Assembly: GCA_035498015.1 (NCBI GenBank)
Contig: DATKAO010000132.1
Coordinates: 1 to 35,832 of the forward strand
Reading direction: 5' to 3'
Source: Myxococcota bacterium
Lineage (GTDB): Bacteria > Myxococcota_A > UBA9160 > SZUA-336
Length of the DNA stretch: 35,832 nucleotides
This document shows positions 2,602 through 28,721 of the stretch, one piece after another. The notes beneath the pieces are model-generated. The model was given only the letters and a program-made list of their open reading frames with translations, made no database searches and was not told where the DNA came from. Positions within the stretch are counted from its first letter, which is position 1. Every line of letters starts with the position of its first letter. Position numbers and translations under genes: made by a program.

Positions 2602-3351
2602 ATGGACGTGAGGGGGCTGCGAAGGGCACTGATCGGACTCAGTGCCGCAGTGGCGGTCGTCGTGGGAACCAGCGCCAACGCCGCACCGGTCGTCGGTGTG
2701 ACCATCGACTCGGCGGACGCGGCAACGGGCATCGCGAACGGTCACTACGCGGTCGATCTCGAGACCACCGCCAACGGCGACGGGAGTTACGGTCTCTCGG
2801 GCCTGGGCTACGACACGGGGTTCCAGTGCAACTGGGATCTCACGGTCAATCCCGACCCGCAGATCACCAGCTCGTTCACGCTGATGAACCTGTCGCCGAA
2901 CCCTACGAACTTCACCATGACCATCACGCTGCCGATCGCGGCCATCGGCCCGAACACGGTTCGCGGCGGTTACTACGGCGATCCGGTCACCGGTACGACT
3001 TACACGGACACGAGCGGCGACGCGAACGTGACTCTGGCGAGCGTCGGTGCCTTCTACACGGCGCTGGTCAACAACGTGGTGTCGATGTCACTCGGTTCCT
3101 TCAGCCAGAACGCGAACGGCGGCGCGGGCATCCAGGGCAACCTCTCGCAGCAGTCTTGGGGCACGCCGATCCCGAGCGCTCCGTTCGGCGCGGCGACCGG
3201 CAACATGGTGATCAAGTGGAGCTTCAGCCTGACCGGCGGCGACCAGGTCCAGACCAAGGGCTTCTTCCAGGTCGAGGCCCCGGAGCCGAGCACGGTGCTG
3301 CTGGGCCTCCTGGCCCTCGGCGGCCTGGCCCTCGCCCGCAAGCGCGCCTGA
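2602..3351 (+). CDS. PEP-CTERM sorting domain protein, paralogue A
   Basis: This 249-residue exported protein has an N-terminal signal peptide cleaved near ANA-APVVG (around residue 28). Its C-terminus is textbook PEP-CTERM: PEPST, a leucine/glycine membrane stretch, and ARKRA. The mature part is beta-rich and nearly the same as in the gene at 3542, including TIDSADAATG and FQCNWDLTVNPDPQI. One cysteine lies in the FQCNW motif. The role is probably structural or adhesive at the surface after exosortase processing; the ligand is unknown. GGAGGGAA sits eight bases before the ATG. The gene is followed by a strong hairpin terminator at 3376-3407, so it forms its own unit. Confidence 0.85.
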   Translation: MDVRGLRRALIGLSAAVAVVVGTSANAAPVVGVTIDSADAATGIANGHYAVDLETTANGDGSYGLSGLGYDTGFQCNWDLTVNPDPQITSSFTLMNLSPNPTNFTMTITLPIAAIGPNTVRGGYYGDPVTGTTYTDTSGDANVTLASVGAFYTALVNNVVSMSLGSFSQNANGGAGIQGNLSQQSWGTPIPSAPFGAATGNMVIKWSFSLTGGDQVQTKGFFQVEAPEPSTVLLGLLALGGLALARKRA

Positions 3352-3457: not shown

Positions 3458-3541
3458 TGACTACGGGTGGATGTTGGGAAGGTCCCCCGTGCGCACAGCG
3501 CATCCTGTGCGGGAACCGGTGCGGAGCTTGGAGGGAGACCA

Positions 3542-4276
3542 ATGGGCGCAAGGGGACTGCGAAGGGCACTCGTGTGTGCCGCCGTCGGTGTGTGCGTTGC
3601 GAGCATCGCTCACGCCGCGCCGGTGGTGGGCGTGACCATCGACTCGGCCGACGCCGCGACCGGCGCTGCCACGGGTCACTACGCGATCGATCTCGAGACC
3701 GCCGCCAACGGCGACGGTACCTACGGTCTGTCGGGCCTCGGCTACGACGCGGGGTTCCAGTGCAACTGGGATCTCACGGTCAATCCCGACCCACAGATCA
3801 CCAGCACGTTCACGCTCTTGAACCTGTCAGGGAACACCCAGAACTTCACCATGACCATCACGCTGCCGATCGCGACCATCAGCCCGAACACGGTGCGCGG
3901 CGGTTACTTCGGCGATGGGGTCACCGGCACGACGTTCACCGACACGAGCGGCAATGGCAACGTGACTCTGTCGAGCGTCGGCTTCTTCTACACGGCGCTG
4001 GTGAACAACGTCGTGTCGCAGAGCCTGGGCACGTTCAGCCAGAGCTCGAGCACGTCGGCCAGCCTGCCGCAGCAAGCGTGGGGCACGCCGATCCCGAGCC
4101 AGGCATTCGGCGCGGCGACCACCAACATGCAGATCGTGTGGAGCTTCAGCCTGACCGGCGGCGACCAGGTCCAGACCAAGGGCTTCTTCCAGGTCGAGAC
4201 CCCGGAGCCGAGCACGGTGTTGCTGAGCCTCCTGGCGCTCGGCGGACTGGCGACCGCCCGCAAGCTCCGCCGCTAG
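3542..4276 (+). CDS. PEP-CTERM sorting domain protein, paralogue B
   Basis: This 244-residue protein is a close copy of the one at 2602: the same MGARGLRRAL-type start, signal peptide ending near AHA-APVVG, the same NPDPQITSTFTLLNLS core and SFSLTGGDQVQTKGFF segment, and a PEP-CTERM tail (TPEPST, hydrophobic stretch, ARKLRR). The start at 3542 is chosen over an in-frame ATG at 3467 because GGAGGGAGACCA precedes it and it aligns with the paralogue. Compared with paralogue A it has lost a glycine-rich insert (NANGGAGIQG) near residue 170. A tandem duplication that included the upstream box and the terminator is the simplest origin. Function is surface-associated but unknown. Confidence 0.85.
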   Translation: MGARGLRRALVCAAVGVCVASIAHAAPVVGVTIDSADAATGAATGHYAIDLETAANGDGTYGLSGLGYDAGFQCNWDLTVNPDPQITSTFTLLNLSGNTQNFTMTITLPIATISPNTVRGGYFGDGVTGTTFTDTSGNGNVTLSSVGFFYTALVNNVVSQSLGTFSQSSSTSASLPQQAWGTPIPSQAFGAATTNMQIVWSFSLTGGDQVQTKGFFQVETPEPSTVLLSLLALGGLATARKLRR

Positions 4277-4300
4277 TCACTCGCCCGTCTGAGTCACTTT

Positions 4301-4332
4301 CGAACGCCGCGTTCTCCGGAACGCGGCGTTCG
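4301..4332. terminator. bidirectional hairpin terminator, duplicate of 3376-3407
   Basis: The same 14-base arm CGAACGCCGCGTTC (4301-4314), loop TCCG, then its complement (4319-4332). It lies between the end of PEP-CTERM paralogue B and the end of the convergent aldehyde dehydrogenase (stop at 4338), so it can stop transcription from both sides. Confidence 0.8.
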
Positions 4333-4337
4333 TGCGT

Positions 4338-5876
4338 TCAGGACAGCCAGCGGCCGAGCGGCGTGCCGAACAAGAAGCGGATCAGCTTCTTCATGCCCTG
4401 GTCCTTGGCCTCGCCGTACGGATAGTGAGTCGCGGCCTGCCGGCCGCCCCAGCGGTCGCGGATGATGGGCAGCGCCTGGGTGTAGCCGCGCAAGCCGTCG
4501 CGGCCGTGCACGTGACCGACGCCGCTCTGCTTGCGCCCCCCGAACGGCGCCTCGGGGACGCCGTAGGTCATGGTGAGGTCGTTGATGCACACGCTGCCGG
4601 AGTCGATGCGGCGGGCGAGCTCGCCGGCCAGACGCGCGTCGCGCGTCCACACGTTGGCGCCCAGGCCGTAGCTCGTGTCGTTGGCACGCGCGATCGCCTC
4701 GTCGAGGTCGCGCACGCGCACGATCGGCAGCACCGGCCCGAAGTTCTCCTCGCGCATCAGCGCCATGTCGTCGCGCACGCCGACCAGCACCGTGGGCTCG
4801 AAGAAGTGGCCTTTGAGCCGCGGGTTCCGTCGGCCGCCCACGAGCGCGGTGGCGCCGCCTGCGATCGCCTCGTCGACCTGGCGCGCCACGATCTCGAGCT
4901 GGCGCGGCCAGAACATGGCCCCCACGTCGAACTCGCCCGAGGCCTCCTGGCGCAGGGCCTTCGTGCGGGCCACGACCTTTTCGATGAACCGGTCCGCGAC
5001 CTCCTCCACCACGTAGACCCGCTCGGTGCCGCAGCAGAACTGGCCGGAGTTCAGGAAGCCGCCGGCGATCGCGCCGCCCGCGGCGGCGTCGAGATCGGCG
5101 TCGGCGCACACGATCATCGGGTCCTTGCCGCCGAGCTCGAGCGTGCACGGGATCAGCCGCTCGGCGCAGGCGACCGCCACGCGCCGGCCGGTGGCCACGC
5201 TGCCGGTGAACGAGATCTTGTCGACCCCCGCCTCGCACAGCGCGGCGCCGGTCTCGCCATCGCCCACCAGGAGCTCGAGCACGCCCTCGGGCAGCCCGGC
5301 CTCGCGGAACAGGTCGGCGACGATCCGGCCCGAGAACGGAGTCACCTCCGAGGGCTTGAGCAGCACCGCGTTCCCGGCGAGCAGGGCCTGCACGGTCGGG
5401 TCGAGCGACAGGATCACCGGCCCGTTCCAGGGGCTGATCACGCCCACCACGCCCAGCGGCCGGTAGGCGATCTCGAGCTTCTTGGTGAAGCGCAAAAGCC
5501 CGTGCAGCGGCACGCGCTCGGTGCGCAGCAATGCCGGCGCGCGCTTGGACCAGTAGGTCATCGAGTCACAGGCGGCGAAGACCTCCATCATGCGGGCTTC
5601 GGTCGCGGGCTTGCCGGACTCACGCACCACGACCTCGACGATCCGGTCCTGCTTCTCGATCAAGAGGCCCAGCGCGCGCTGCACGTAGCGCACGCGCTCG
5701 CCGACGCTCTGCGCCGCCCAGGCGGGCTGCGCCTTGCGCGCGCGCTCGAGCGCGGCGCGCACGTCGGAGGCGTTCTGGACCTCGATCTCGCCGATCGGCT
5801 CGCCGGTCACGGGGCTCGAGATCGCCAGGCGCCGGCGCGCGCCCGGGGCGACTTCGACGGGTGTCACGATGGCCAT
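4338..5876 (-). CDS. NAD(P)-dependent aldehyde dehydrogenase
   Basis: This 512-residue member of the aldehyde dehydrogenase superfamily oxidises an aldehyde to the acid. Visible hallmarks: PWN (149-151) for the active-site oxyanion region, LLKPSE (172-177) for the cofactor, FTGS (223-226), catalytic base E247 in LELGGKDP, nucleophile C281 in NSGQFCC, and EENFGPV further on. A C-terminal extension of about 35 residues, ending FLFGTPLGRWL, is longer than usual and partly hydrophobic; it may aid oligomerisation or membrane contact. The substrate is unknown; the neighbouring EthD and P450 genes suggest an aldehyde from an oxidised hydrocarbon. It is transcribed away from the EthD gene from a very short divergent promoter region and ends at a shared terminator. 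Confidence 0.9.
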   Translation of the reverse strand: MAIVTPVEVAPGARRRLAISSPVTGEPIGEIEVQNASDVRAALERARKAQPAWAAQSVGERVRYVQRALGLLIEKQDRIVEVVVRESGKPATEARMMEVFAACDSMTYWSKRAPALLRTERVPLHGLLRFTKKLEIAYRPLGVVGVISPWNGPVILSLDPTVQALLAGNAVLLKPSEVTPFSGRIVADLFREAGLPEGVLELLVGDGETGAALCEAGVDKISFTGSVATGRRVAVACAERLIPCTLELGGKDPMIVCADADLDAAAGGAIAGGFLNSGQFCCGTERVYVVEEVADRFIEKVVARTKALRQEASGEFDVGAMFWPRQLEIVARQVDEAIAGGATALVGGRRNPRLKGHFFEPTVLVGVRDDMALMREENFGPVLPIVRVRDLDEAIARANDTSYGLGANVWTRDARLAGELARRIDSGSVCINDLTMTYGVPEAPFGGRKQSGVGHVHGRDGLRGYTQALPIIRDRWGGRQAATHYPYGEAKDQGMKKLIRFLFGTPLGRWLS

Positions 5877-5901
5877 ACGCGCGCGAGTGTACCATCGGCC
5901 C
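5877..5901. promoter_or_regulatory. 25-bp divergent promoter with overlapping -10 boxes
   Basis: On the plus strand TACCAT (5890-5895) lies six bases before the GTG at 5902. On the minus strand TACACT (complement of 5886-5891) lies nine bases before the ATG at 5876. The boxes share two base pairs, so RNA polymerase could serve only one direction at a time. Neither gene has a Shine-Dalgarno sequence, so both messages would be leaderless or nearly so. Confidence 0.55.
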
Positions 5902-6558
5902 GTGGTCGAGATTTTCTTCCTGTGCGCGCGGCGCGCCGACCTGTCACACCTGGCGTATTCGGCGCACCTGCTCGAGCGGCACGCCCCGCTCGCCCTGCAG
6001 CACCACCCGCGGCTGCGGGGCTACACCGTGTACGACGTGGAGGAGGCGCTGCCGCCCGCCGAGCCGATCGACAGCGTGAACGCGCTGGCCTTCGACTCAC
6101 TCCAGGACTACGAGCGAGGTCTGTACGCCTCGGTCGAGGGCGAGCGCCTGGTGAGCGAGGACCACGCGCGCTTCCTGGGCGGCGCCTCGGGCTACGCCGG
6201 CCACCTGCGCGTCTTGCACGACTCCGGTCCCGCCCCCGCGCACTGGCTGTGCGCGCTGCGCCGGCGCGCGGGCCTGGATGCCCAGCGCTTCAGCGCGGAG
6301 CTCGTGCCCGAGCTGCTCGCGGGCCAGCCCGCGGCCACGCGCGTGGCCCTGCTCGAGGTCGAGCGCCGGCTCTTTCCCGACGCTGCGCCCGAGTGGGACG
6401 CCTTCCTGTGCCTGGGCTTCGCCGACGCCGCGCGCCGGCCGGTGCACCCGTTCGCCTCGCCCGACTGCGCCATGTCGCTGCGCAAGGCGGCCGCGGCGCT
6501 GTGCGCGGCCAGCGCGCTCTGGCGCGCGCAGGCGCACGTGCTGCGCCGCGCGGGCTAG
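5902..6558 (+). CDS. EthD-like dimeric alpha/beta-barrel protein
   Basis: This 218-residue protein resembles EthD-domain proteins: LSHLAYSAHLLERHAPL near the start, LRGYTVYDV in the next strand, and FDSLQDYERG followed by a second helix with EDHARFLG. EthD proteins are small ferredoxin-like barrels found with P450 and ring-degrading systems. The second half (ALRRRAGLDAQRFSAEL onward) may be a diverged second copy of the fold, which would make an internal pseudo-dimer. The start is GTG at 5902, six bases after TACCAT; the reading frame upstream crosses the divergent dehydrogenase gene and is not used. The stop TAG lies eight bases before the P450 start, so the two are probably co-expressed. 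Confidence 0.65.
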   Translation: MVEIFFLCARRADLSHLAYSAHLLERHAPLALQHHPRLRGYTVYDVEEALPPAEPIDSVNALAFDSLQDYERGLYASVEGERLVSEDHARFLGGASGYAGHLRVLHDSGPAPAHWLCALRRRAGLDAQRFSAELVPELLAGQPAATRVALLEVERRLFPDAAPEWDAFLCLGFADAARRPVHPFASPDCAMSLRKAAAALCAASALWRAQAHVLRRAG

Positions 6559-6566
6559 GATGGGCC

Positions 6567-7784
6567 ATGGCGCAGCGCCCGCACATCGATCTCGTCGACC
6601 CCGCGAGCTTCGCGAACGGCCAGCCGCACGATCAGTTCCAGTGGCTGCGCGAGCACGACCCGGTGCACTGGCACGCGGAGCGCGACGGGCCCGGCTTCTT
6701 CGCCGTCACCCGCCACGCCGACGTGACCGCGGTGGGCCGTGACTCGGCGACCTTCTCCTCGACCCACACGATCCTGATCCAGGACCCGCCGCCGGGGACC
6801 GAGCTCGACTTCGGCGAGTCGGGAATGATGCTCACCATGGACCCGCCGAAACACACCCGCTACCGGCGGATCGTGAGCCGCGAGTTCACGCCGCGCGCAT
6901 CGGCGGCGCTGGGCCCGCGCATCGGAGAGCTCGCCAAGCAGATCATCGACGCGGTGATCGAACGCGGCGAGTGCGACCTGGTGGACGACATCGCGGGCGA
7001 GCTCCCGTCGTACGTGATCGCCGAGCTCTTGGGCATCCCGCTCGACGACGGACGCGAGCTGTACCGGCTCACCGAGGCCATCCACGCCGCGCCCGAGTCA
7101 CTGCCGCCCGGTGCCGCGGGCGCGGCGGCCATGCAGATGTTCCAGTACGCCCAGGGCGTGATCCGCGAGAAGCGCGCGCGCCCGGGCGCGGACCTGGCGA
7201 CCAAGATCCTGAACGCCGAGGTCGACGGCCAGCGCTTCACGGAGATCGACTTCCAGCTGTTCTTCCTGCTCCTGGTCGACGCCGGCGGAGACACCACGCG
7301 CAACCTCGTGGGCGGGGGCATGCTGGCGCTGTTCGAGCACCCCGAGCAGCGTGCGCAGCTCGCCGCTCGGCTCGACTCACTCCTGCCGGGCGCGGTCGAG
7401 GAGATGCTGCGCTGGGTGTCTCCGGTGGTCTACATGCGCCGCACCGCCACGCGCGACGCCGAGCTCGCAGGCACGAAGATCCGCAAGGGCCAGAAGGTGG
7501 TCATGTACTACGGCTCGGCGAACCGCGACCCGCGCGCGTTCGCCGACCCGGAGCGCTTCGACGTCTCGCGCGATCCCAACCCGCACGTGGCGTTCGGCGG
7601 CGGCGGCGCTCACTTCTGCCTGGGCGCGCACATCGCGCGCATCGAGATCGAGGCCATGCTGCGCGAGATCTTGCGCCGCATTCCCGACGTCGAGCCGGCC
7701 GGCCCCACCGAGTGGCTGCCCTCGACCTTCATCTCGGGCCCCAAGCACATGCCGGTCCGGTTCAGGCCGAAGTCACTTCGCTAG
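6567..7784 (+). CDS. cytochrome P450
   Basis: This 405-residue soluble bacterial P450 inserts one oxygen atom into an organic substrate, using electrons from a ferredoxin partner not seen here. Motifs: AGGDTT (239-244) in the I helix for oxygen activation, E279 to R282 as the ExxR of the K helix, and FGGGGAHFCLG with heme-ligand C351. MDPPKHTRYRRIVSREFTPR (91-110) is the C-helix segment. The overall look is near the CYP125/CYP142 or terpene hydroxylase groups, from general resemblance only. TAGGAT (6556-6561) overlaps the stop of the EthD gene and sits five bases before the ATG. It could be a -10 for a leaderless message, although AGGA could also act as a weak ribosome binding site. The 3' end overlaps the convergent hydrolase gene by 12 bp. 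Confidence 0.93.
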   Translation: MAQRPHIDLVDPASFANGQPHDQFQWLREHDPVHWHAERDGPGFFAVTRHADVTAVGRDSATFSSTHTILIQDPPPGTELDFGESGMMLTMDPPKHTRYRRIVSREFTPRASAALGPRIGELAKQIIDAVIERGECDLVDDIAGELPSYVIAELLGIPLDDGRELYRLTEAIHAAPESLPPGAAGAAAMQMFQYAQGVIREKRARPGADLATKILNAEVDGQRFTEIDFQLFFLLLVDAGGDTTRNLVGGGMLALFEHPEQRAQLAARLDSLLPGAVEEMLRWVSPVVYMRRTATRDAELAGTKIRKGQKVVMYYGSANRDPRAFADPERFDVSRDPNPHVAFGGGGAHFCLGAHIARIEIEAMLREILRRIPDVEPAGPTEWLPSTFISGPKHMPVRFRPKSLR

Positions 7785-8846
7785 CTGGTGCAGCCGGGCC
7801 GGGTTGTCGACCAGCACCTGCTGGATCTGCGCCTCGCTCGCGCCGCAGTCGCGCAGCCAGGGCACCACGTGCTCGAGCACGTGGGCGTAGCCCCAGCCGC
7901 CGAAGGCCTTGTAACAGGTCTTCCAGCCGATCTCGTTGCCGATCAGCACGCGGTCGGCGTGACCGGCTTCGAGCAGCCGCATCACGGCGTCGATCTCCTC
8001 CTTGTCGCGCGGGAACGCGCGGCCCGGACCGACGATCTCGTAGTACTCCTCGTGCCCGAAGTGGTCGTACGACACGAAGCCCAGCCCGCGCCGCAGCACG
8101 TGCCGGGCCACGTCCGCCGAGTAGAAGCCCATGTGCGAGAGATACACCTTGGACAGGTCCGCACCCTCGGCCTCGAGCAGGTCGAGATAGAAGTCGAGGT
8201 GGTGCTTGGGTGTCTCGCGCGAGCCGTGGGTGCCACCGTTGGGGTGCACGGTGAGCGACGCGCCGGTGCGCGCCTGCGCCCGCGCGGCCCCGCGCAGCAC
8301 CTTCTCCTCGCCCGGCAGGCACGGCACGTCGGGCATGCCGCTGCAGCCGATCTCGCCGATGTTGCCGGCGCGCACGCCGCTGTCGCCGATGCCCTCCGTG
8401 AGCTCGCGCACCATGGCGTCGGCCAGCGCGCCGACGTCGAGCGCTGCGACCTCGGGCGGGTGACTCGCCTCGGTGTAGAAGCCGGTCGACGCGATCACGT
8501 GCAGGCCGGTCGCGCGCGAGATGCGCTGCAGCGCGGCCACGTCGCGGCCGATGCCCGGCAGCTCCATGTCGACCAGCGCTCCGCCGCCCGCGCGCTTGAA
8601 CTCCGCCGCTTCGCGGATCGTGAGCTCGACGTCGGACTGCACCAGGTTGTCGCGCACCACCAGGCCGTTGCGCCGCGCCAGGCCCAGGTTCTCGAGCCCG
8701 AGCGGCTTGCCCGCCACGCGCGCCACCTCCGGGTCGGTGGGCGGCGCGTACCAGCACGAGATGTCGAGCGTGAGATGCACGTGCGACATCGCCGCGCCGA
8801 GGTCGGCAGGGGCGATCGGGCCCAGAACCGTCTCGATGCGCGCCAT
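7773..8846 (-). CDS. phosphotriesterase-family metal-dependent hydrolase
   Basis: This 357-residue TIM-barrel amidohydrolase belongs to the phosphotriesterase/lactonase family. Metal ligands visible: H22 and H24 in MSHVHL, E165 in IGEIG (glutamate in the place of the carboxylated lysine, as in the phosphotriesterase-homology proteins), H201 in TVHPNGG and H238 in LSHMG. At the last ligand, where the family has an aspartate in a SHD-type motif, this protein reads GNEIGWK (303-309), so N304 and E305 replace H and D. The ending LVDNPARL is typical of the family. It begins two bases after the stop of the Rieske oxygenase gene, so they form one unit. A lactone or ester made by the oxygenase is a reasonable substrate guess; activity needs the unusual E305 to work. 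Confidence 0.82.
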   Translation of the reverse strand: MARIETVLGPIAPADLGAAMSHVHLTLDISCWYAPPTDPEVARVAGKPLGLENLGLARRNGLVVRDNLVQSDVELTIREAAEFKRAGGGALVDMELPGIGRDVAALQRISRATGLHVIASTGFYTEASHPPEVAALDVGALADAMVRELTEGIGDSGVRAGNIGEIGCSGMPDVPCLPGEEKVLRGAARAQARTGASLTVHPNGGTHGSRETPKHHLDFYLDLLEAEGADLSKVYLSHMGFYSADVARHVLRRGLGFVSYDHFGHEEYYEIVGPGRAFPRDKEEIDAVMRLLEAGHADRVLIGNEIGWKTCYKAFGGWGYAHVLEHVVPWLRDCGASEAQIQQVLVDNPARLHQLAK

Positions 8847-8848
8847 GG

Positions 8849-9805
8849 CTAGAAGCGGTCGATGCCGGCGTCGGTCGAGTAGAACTGCTTGTACCAGCGG
8901 CGGAACCGGCCCACGTCGCCGTCGTTCTCGGCGAGCAGAGGCTGCGGGCGGTAGACCTTCTGGTTCCAGAGCTTGAAGTCGAGCTCCCAGTCACTCGCGT
9001 AGAAGTCGAAGAAGCCTTCGAGCTCGGCCTTGGTCGCGGGCTCGGACTTCTTCGCGTAGTAGGTGTGCACGACCTCGCACTGCTCGTCGTCGATCGGCGT
9101 CAGCGTCTGGATCGAGACACCGGCCATGCGCCCGGTGACTCGCGTGAGCGACAGACCGGGCCCGTACATGAACGAGCGGAACGAGCTCTCGCCAAGGGCG
9201 TTGGTCTGCGCGTCGGCCTCGCGCTTCAGGTCGAGCACCAGCGTGGCGATCGCGCCCTCGCCCTGCCAGTTCACCTTCTCGATCTGCATGCCGTGCACGT
9301 GCGCGAAGTGCTGGATATCGACCGCGTTCTCGTACATCTCCTGGATGTGGGTCTGGAGCTCCCAGCGCACCCGCTTGTACTTGTAGTAGCTCGGGTCGCT
9401 GGCCTCGGGGATCTCTGGGACCTCGAACTCGGGCGCCTTGTCCTCGGCGTGGTGCCAGACCATGACGTAGCCGTTCTGCTCGCGGGTCTCCCAGGCGCGG
9501 ATGCGCGCGAGTGCCGGGATCTTCTTCGCGTAGGGCACGTCGGTGCAGCGGCCGTCGCCCGCCCAGCGCCAGCCGTGGAAGGGGCACTGCAGGTCGCCGC
9601 CGACCACCTTGCCGCCCACGCCCAGGTGCGCGCCCAGGTGCGGGCAGTAGGCGTCGAGCACGTGTGCCACGCCGTCCTCGCCGCGGTAGGCGACCAGGTC
9701 GCGGCCGAGCTGGTGGATGGGCTTCACGTCGCCGATCGCCAGCTCGTCGCTGAACACCACCTTGAACCAGCCGTTGGGCGAGTGCGGCAGGGGGATGCGC
9801 TTCAT
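8849..9805 (-). CDS. Rieske non-heme iron oxygenase, KshA-like
   Basis: This 318-residue protein is the terminal oxygenase of a Rieske system. The [2Fe-2S] site is C54-P-H56 and C74-P-F-H77. The mononuclear iron ligands are D163, H166 and H171 (DxxHxxxxH). The DAYCPHLGAHL and CPFHGWRW segments and the length resemble 3-ketosteroid 9-alpha-hydroxylase oxygenases (KshA), but sequence alone cannot fix the substrate. No reductase gene is nearby. The start at 9805 (MKRIPLP) is chosen because GGGAG precedes it; a longer frame crosses the promoter. It is paralogous to the protein at 27688, and both promoters carry the same operator. The phosphotriesterase-family gene follows after two bases. Confidence 0.9.
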   Translation of the reverse strand: MKRIPLPHSPNGWFKVVFSDELAIGDVKPIHQLGRDLVAYRGEDGVAHVLDAYCPHLGAHLGVGGKVVGGDLQCPFHGWRWAGDGRCTDVPYAKKIPALARIRAWETREQNGYVMVWHHAEDKAPEFEVPEIPEASDPSYYKYKRVRWELQTHIQEMYENAVDIQHFAHVHGMQIEKVNWQGEGAIATLVLDLKREADAQTNALGESSFRSFMYGPGLSLTRVTGRMAGVSIQTLTPIDDEQCEVVHTYYAKKSEPATKAELEGFFDFYASDWELDFKLWNQKVYRPQPLLAENDGDVGRFRRWYKQFYSTDAGIDRF

Positions 9806-9824: not shown

Positions 9825-9840
9825 TTAGAACATGTTTCAG
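9825..9840 (-). promoter_or_regulatory. KstR-like operator, copy 1
   Basis: On the minus strand this reads CTGAAACATGTTCTAA. The core (9826-9839) fits TnnAACnnGTTnnA, the operator form known for the TetR-family repressor KstR in mycobacteria. It covers the predicted transcription start of the Rieske gene, where a repressor would block initiation. It matches the copy at 28693-28708 in 15 of 16 bases. Confidence 0.7.
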
Positions 9841-28691: not shown

Positions 28692-28721
28692 ATTAGAACA
28701 CGTTTCAGGAGGGGCTGACAA
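28692..28721 (-). promoter_or_regulatory. promoter of the 13-gene operon
   Basis: On the minus strand TTGTCA (28721-28716) and TCTAAT (28697-28692) are 18 bp apart; five of six and four of six bases match the sigma70 boxes. The KstR-like operator fills the spacer and part of the -10, so a bound repressor would block RNA polymerase. Confidence 0.6.
28693..28708. promoter_or_regulatory. KstR-like operator, copy 2
   Basis: On the minus strand this reads CTGAAACGTGTTCTAA. The core (28694-28707) fits TnnAACnnGTTnnA. It differs from the copy at 9825-9840 at one of 16 bases. It lies between divergent genes and could control both the operon and the SDR at 28723. Confidence 0.7.

Follow-up and report, generated by a model that had tools for sequence, protein, structure and literature searches.

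The 25 bp that separate a divergently oriented aldehyde dehydrogenase (ALDH) gene and EthD-domain gene in a Myxococcota bacterium probably constitute a minimal bidirectional promoter for two genes whose messages are predicted to have little or no leader. A preliminary description of this DNA had drawn attention to the gap and to its overlapping −10 boxes; that both messages are predicted to lack a leader, or nearly so, and that the layout recurs in the same genome had escaped it.

The Gene Pair and Its Intergenic Region

The window, i.e., the whole 35,832-nucleotide stretch of DNA that was analyzed, corresponds to contig C132, part of a draft genome of 4.52 Mb that is 95% complete. On its minus strand, the ALDH gene (4338–5876) encodes a protein of 512 aa (PF00171, E = 1e-139) from an ATG at 5876, where the residues MAIV align with codon 1 of its relatives. 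On the plus strand, the EthD-domain gene (5902–6558) encodes 218 aa (PF07110, E = 4.5e-5, 25 bits against a cut-off of 22) from a GTG at 5902, and a relative from G013 aligned from residue 1. A cytochrome P450 gene (6567–7784, plus strand; PF00067, E = 1.1e-22) lies 8 bp 3′ of the EthD gene, a spacing from which the two are probably one operon. No Shine-Dalgarno (SD) motif was found upstream of the ALDH start by script, and none was seen by eye upstream of the EthD start. The entire intergenic region (5877–5901) is proposed as the promoter core on the basis of its sequence, a shuffle test, and recurrence. The coordinates and strands of both genes and the 25 bp between their start codons, as first described, agree with the sequence.

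Relatives of the EthD protein were found in 12 of 58 other genomes at E ≤ 0.001, most of them weak, and a pattern-based scan of the genome's own contigs returned none. At 14 loci with EthD homologs, tblastn placed no ALDH, P450, or phosphotriesterase of the window's type in the neighborhood, except for one weak, partial ALDH match (L016, E = 1.3e-8); the ALDH/EthD pair was not found in any relative, as judged from the EthD homologs of the 58 genomes and their loci. The P450, EthD, and ALDH proteins could act in one oxidation route.

Elsewhere in the window, two copies of TNNAACNNGTTNNA (TAGAACATGTTTCA at 9826–9839 and TAGAACACGTTTCA at 28694–28707) are present, against an average of 0.05 in shuffles of the window. 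This sequence is the published core of the KstR operator (PMC1995591). Each copy adjoins the start of a gene for a KshA-like Rieske oxygenase, the first only if its gene starts at 9805, as the caller has it. A related pattern, TNGAACNNGTTNNA, gave 33 strand hits in the genome compared with six for its reversed control, including one perfect TAGAACACGTTCTA. These observations point to a regulon for steroid catabolism in this Myxococcota bacterium, with an operator like that of KstR. In addition, two neighboring proteins (2602–3351 and 3467–4276) carry weak PEP-CTERM sorting motifs at their ends; one motif narrowly passes the Pfam cut-off, and the other narrowly misses it.

The Overlapping −10 Boxes

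Each start codon is preceded at roughly 10–15 bp by a TANNNT hexamer. The plus-strand box, TACCAT (5890–5895), lies with its first T 12 bp before the GTG, and the minus-strand box, TACACT (5886–5891), with its first T 15 bp before the ATG. As had been reported, the boxes share two base pairs, namely the TA step at 5890–5891, which forms the center of ANNNTANNNT (5886–5895). Read from the sequence, a TGG (5892–5894, minus strand) directly precedes the minus box; following the extended −10 rule, we take the resulting TGnTACACT to be an extended −10 element.

When scored with a matrix built from 81 other leaderless-type sites (training median, 10.2), the plus box reached 9.1, an ordinary value attained by 12% of 412 coding TANNNT sites, and the minus box reached 10.9, a good value attained by 1.5% of them. 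Each box matches TATAAT at four of six positions. A −35-driven sigma-70 promoter was rejected: a consensus scan over 4000–8000 found no promoter, and at spacers of 15–19 bp, the best match to TTGACA was 3/6 on the plus strand and 2/6 on the minus strand, so that no −35 element is recognizable. The arrangement of the boxes is not due to chance, as an overlapping TANNNT pair with each member 11–15 bp from an end arose in about 0.1% of 200,000 shuffles of the 25-bp gap and occurs in 102 of 370,374 genomic 25-mers.

The positions of the boxes allow the transcription start sites to be predicted. On the plus strand, the predicted start is 5902, which is 7 nt past the last T of the −10 box, the distance stated as optimal (PMC12825309), and coincides with the first base of the GTG. 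On the minus strand, the start is predicted within 5876–5879, giving a leader of 0 to 3 nt; since the 15-bp spacing lies at the long end of the range, a leader of 1–3 nt is as likely as none. From the geometry of both boxes, the predicted starts would be 23 bp apart. Among bidirectional promoters, in which opposite-strand −10 boxes overlap in a common register, the common spacings between starts are 18, 10, and 23 bp (PMC12825309).

The Leaderless Signature in the Genome

A TANNNT hexamer roughly 12 bp ahead of the start codon marks leaderless mRNAs, and leaderless genes have been recorded in 8 of 33 delta-proteobacterial genomes (PMC3160421). The positional enrichment of TANNNT in the present genome matches this published signature. 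With a simple codon-usage caller, 800 genes were called in sampled stretches totaling 0.83 Mb (18% of the genome). The first T of a TANNNT lay 11–15 bp upstream of 62 of 254 divergent genes, compared with a mean of 4.9 after shuffling (sd 2.1, at most 10 in any of 100 runs), and the position peaked at 12 bp. Among co-directional genes, the box was present at 11–15 bp in 44 of 375 with gaps below 40 bp (shuffled, 3.9) and in 5 of 123 with gaps of 40 bp or more (shuffled, 1.6; maximum 5). In-frame stops were rejected as the cause of the peak: in a larger, 1.11-Mb sample, 16 of the 34 boxes at 12 bp have no initial stop triplet, the 0.83-Mb sample has no boxes at 9 bp, and positions 13–14 bp are out of frame.

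In relatives, the signal is weaker than in this genome. Five smaller samples from other genomes comprised 254 divergent genes, of which 28 had TANNNT at 11–15 bp and nine had it at a control position of 31–35 bp, and in G001, of the same genus, only 2 of 56 divergent genes carried it. Stand-alone CarD-family proteins help polymerase at weak promoters; the genome encodes a CarD-family domain in one open frame of 238 aa, besides another within a frame of 1210 aa.

ALDH Start Regions and the Reality of the Plus Box

For comparison of the start regions, 110 ALDH loci were reduced to 84 by dropping 17 with a short flank or missing N-terminus, eight duplicates, and one without a start codon. An SD-like motif is present in 76 of these 84 regions (the window being one of the 84), and TANNNT at 11–15 bp was found in the window and in L091 only. 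Some relatives carry promoter-like boxes farther upstream of the ALDH gene, for example, TTGACA and TACCCT separated by 18 bp in L070. Given the SD motif near the start and the more distant boxes in relatives, the box in the window occupies what would be the position of a leader. In L091, two oppositely oriented sites of the TAGAACATGTTYYA type lie upstream of the ALDH start (before position 804), between the ALDH gene and a divergent gene that, by eye, resembles a short-chain dehydrogenase.

The minus box is the better supported of the two, with its higher score and its extended −10, and in L052, the promoter-like sequence TGGTACACT likewise precedes the ALDH start, at a distance of 77 bp. 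Combined with the ordinary score of the plus box, this raises the alternative that only the ALDH promoter is real, with TACCAT having arisen by chance and transcription of the EthD-P450 unit beginning inside the ALDH gene. We regard this as unlikely. The plus box lies exactly at 12 bp, the peak position in the genome, and a plus message with a leader would lack an SD motif, none having been seen by eye.

Recurrence of the Layout

In the 1.11-Mb sample, leaderless-like boxes flank 15 of 161 divergent pairs on both sides, compared with 10.5 expected if the two sides were independent. The boxes overlap in three of the 161, in all three cases as ANNNTANNNT. These make up half of the six pairs with gaps of 18–30 bp, for which the shuffled mean is 0.03.

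Across the whole genome, raw counts of the pattern alone are mixed: the version with CAT gave 15 matches, above the four for the reversed pattern, and the version with CAC, which corresponds to a GTG start, gave 11, below the 23 of its reversed control. Coding potential was then scored with a codon-usage model trained on our own gene calls; to pass, each side had to score above 8 and to extend over 60 aa or more. By this measure, 16 of 22 pattern places, the window among them, code on both sides, with gaps of 22–29 bp; the scores cover the forward-pattern places, with the reversed-pattern control places and the C242 place outside the scoring. The 22 places comprise 24 readings, and two of the failing readings are alternative registers of places that pass. 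A stricter core, chosen after the sites had been viewed, gave 14 strand hits at 12 places compared with one in the reversed control. The version of the CAT pattern with starts 18 bp apart occurs at three places in the genome, of which one codes on both sides. At L314, a pair coding on both sides has an 18-bp-type core (TANNNTA) and start codons 20 bp apart.

Apart from the window, the sites that code on both sides bring together 30 partner genes at 15 places. These genes encode enzymes, transport or binding proteins, one YscW-domain protein, uncharacterized families, and one 73-aa protein without a match; five of the 30 proteins were read only as far as the end of the locus. No regulator family was found among them (0/30). 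One sister pair consists of PaaA (TIGR02156, above the cut-off) and a PaaG-like enzyme (340.7 bits, narrowly short of the 345 cut-off). PaaA and PaaG catalyze successive steps of phenylacetate breakdown.

Conservation in Relatives

Three sister pairs keep the core in G001, a second species of the genus, at 62–82% protein identity and with gaps that agree within 1 bp. The first, a GNAT/ABC transporter pair (L283 and L294), has the cores ATGTTACCCT and ATGGTACCCT and a gap of 26 bp in both species, the gap in G001 depending on a start set by protein alignment (the best reading by script is 3 bp nearer and gives 23 bp). The second, a tRNA-methyltransferase-like/radical SAM pair (L273 and L292), has the cores AGTATAGCTT and AGTATAGCCT and gaps of 29 and 28 bp. 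The third, a glyoxalase/endoribonuclease L-PSP family pair (L285 and L293), has the core ATGATACCAT in both and gaps of 27 and 26 bp.

Across the class, the raw pattern shows no clear excess over its control: the 58 relatives contain 672 matches compared with 621, the pattern outnumbering its control in 31 genomes, falling short of it in 22, and equaling it in five. Likewise, the overlapping layout was present in none of 127 divergent pairs from samples of five relatives. With the G000 codon model applied, four of the seven pattern matches in G001, all of which were scored, are coding pairs, as are 10 of 13 matches in other genomes; because these 13 were picked by eye for look-alike cores, the combined figure of 14 of 20 should not be read as an unbiased rate.

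Switch, Operator, or Independent Outputs

The preliminary description held that polymerase binding in one direction should exclude the other and that the gap would therefore be a compact either/or switch. The first part is plausible by analogy: the −10 boxes overlap in the manner of published bidirectional promoters, where steric hindrance is said to keep two polymerases from binding at once (PMC12825309). The second part found no support. For a switch, in which a polymerase bound one way would silence the other gene and so choose between ALDH and EthD-P450, it can be argued that simultaneous binding is impossible in principle (PMC12825309) and that the overlapping divergent promoters of the EcoRV restriction-modification system are described as strongly coupled (PMC5333194). 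However, at all five E. coli promoters tested, basal transcription was too low for competition, and exclusion appeared once one direction was raised (PMC12825309). Both boxes of the window are without a −35 element, so strong occupancy is unlikely. Moreover, the EcoRV system has a regulator protein, whereas no regulator family was hit among the eight window proteins scanned around the gap (0/8) or among the sister-site partners. Where a PaaA gene and a PaaG-like gene serve one pathway, exclusion would be counter-productive; for such a pair, and possibly for P450, EthD, and ALDH if they share one route, a switch makes little sense and compact co-supply does. We therefore consider a switch very unlikely. 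An unlinked regulator acting at the gap is possible, in that coupled control with a regulator exists in EcoRV and lysG/lysE.

Another reading takes the pseudo-palindrome CGAnnGTACnnTCG (5884–5897), with five of seven symmetric pairs in its 14 bp, as the operator of a dimeric regulator of both genes. A precedent is lysG/lysE of M. tuberculosis, in which overlapping divergent promoters in a 108-bp gap contain a central inverted repeat and are served by a regulator (PMC5648196). Against this, the 1.11-Mb sample contains one further copy of the palindrome besides this one, inside a coding region; the free core positions at 16 sister sites are symmetric in 17 of 48 cases, with 17.4 expected if the boxes are independent; and no regulator family was hit among the eight window proteins scanned around the gap. 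The operator, which these observations leave with a slim chance, was rejected less firmly than the −35-driven promoter.

For the minimal bidirectional promoter, the sequence, the positional enrichment, the recurrence, and the conservation of three sister pairs lead us to infer the following course. Polymerase with the housekeeping sigma factor would recognize A-NNN-TA-NNN-T in both orientations. From TACCAT, it would fire rightward and start on or beside the GTG of the EthD-P450 unit; from TACACT, with TGG ahead, it would fire leftward and start 0–3 nt from the ALDH ATG. The start codons would be read from the RNA 5′ end of predicted leaderless mRNAs, in which case neither gene needs a leader or an SD site. 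One polymerase at a time would occupy the gap, and at ordinary strength, two weak and largely independent outputs would be expected rather than a switch. Low basal activity is the default expectation since neither box has a −35 element.

Relation to Known Systems

The symmetric −10 bidirectional promoters in the available text of two reports (PMC12825309; PMC10268837) resemble the window in that divergent starts surround overlapping −10 boxes, a 23-bp spacing is common, and one polymerase excludes the other. The window differs in that its starts, which are predicted only, lie at or beside the start codons, that the promoter is the entire intergenic region, and that the genome is high in GC. 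The leaderless genes of another report likewise have TANNNT about 12 bp upstream (12 bp on the plus strand and 15 bp on the minus strand of the window, which has no SD motif); they are described singly in the text available, and the word "divergent" is absent from that paper, whereas the window packs two of them head to head on one TA step (PMC3160421). In Deinococcus-Thermus, a different phylum, the −10 box also adjoins the open reading frame of leaderless mRNAs, and head-to-head pairs were not found in the portion of that report at hand (PMC12340547). EcoRV (PMC5333194) and lysG/lysE (PMC5648196) share with the window divergent promoters with overlapping polymerase sites, and one lysE start is leaderless; unlike the window, both include a regulator, the C transcript of EcoRV reportedly has a leader, and the lysG/lysE gap is 108 bp.

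Among the literature matches listed for leaderless genes with divergent, overlapping, or bidirectional promoters, and for leaderless starts in Myxococcota or Myxococcus, no double-leaderless head-to-head form was described in the text available, which is not proof of its absence. Both ingredients, bidirectional −10 elements and leaderless mRNA, are already known, and what may be new is their double-leaderless, head-to-head combination, which recurs and is partly conserved.

Implications

With predicted starts at or beside both start codons, the 25 bp would carry the complete core promoters of both genes. Should mapping place the starts at the predicted positions, a control region serving two genes could hardly be smaller, and the gap would join bidirectional −10 elements and leaderless mRNA, which are known but have mostly been described separately. 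The findings also suggest that gene finders reliant on SD motifs may misplace starts in this genome. More tentatively, the lineage may possess a distinct class of ultra-compact promoter units of about 25 bp, in which one ANNNTANNNT core would give rise to two leaderless mRNAs in opposite directions. In such units, less than 30 bp would supply the whole core 5′ control of gene pairs that are often unrelated, and the polymerases would have to alternate, an arrangement that may reduce noise in expression. Recurring and in part conserved, the sites offer a ready set for asking whether two genes that share one polymerase site are thereby coupled or kept separate.
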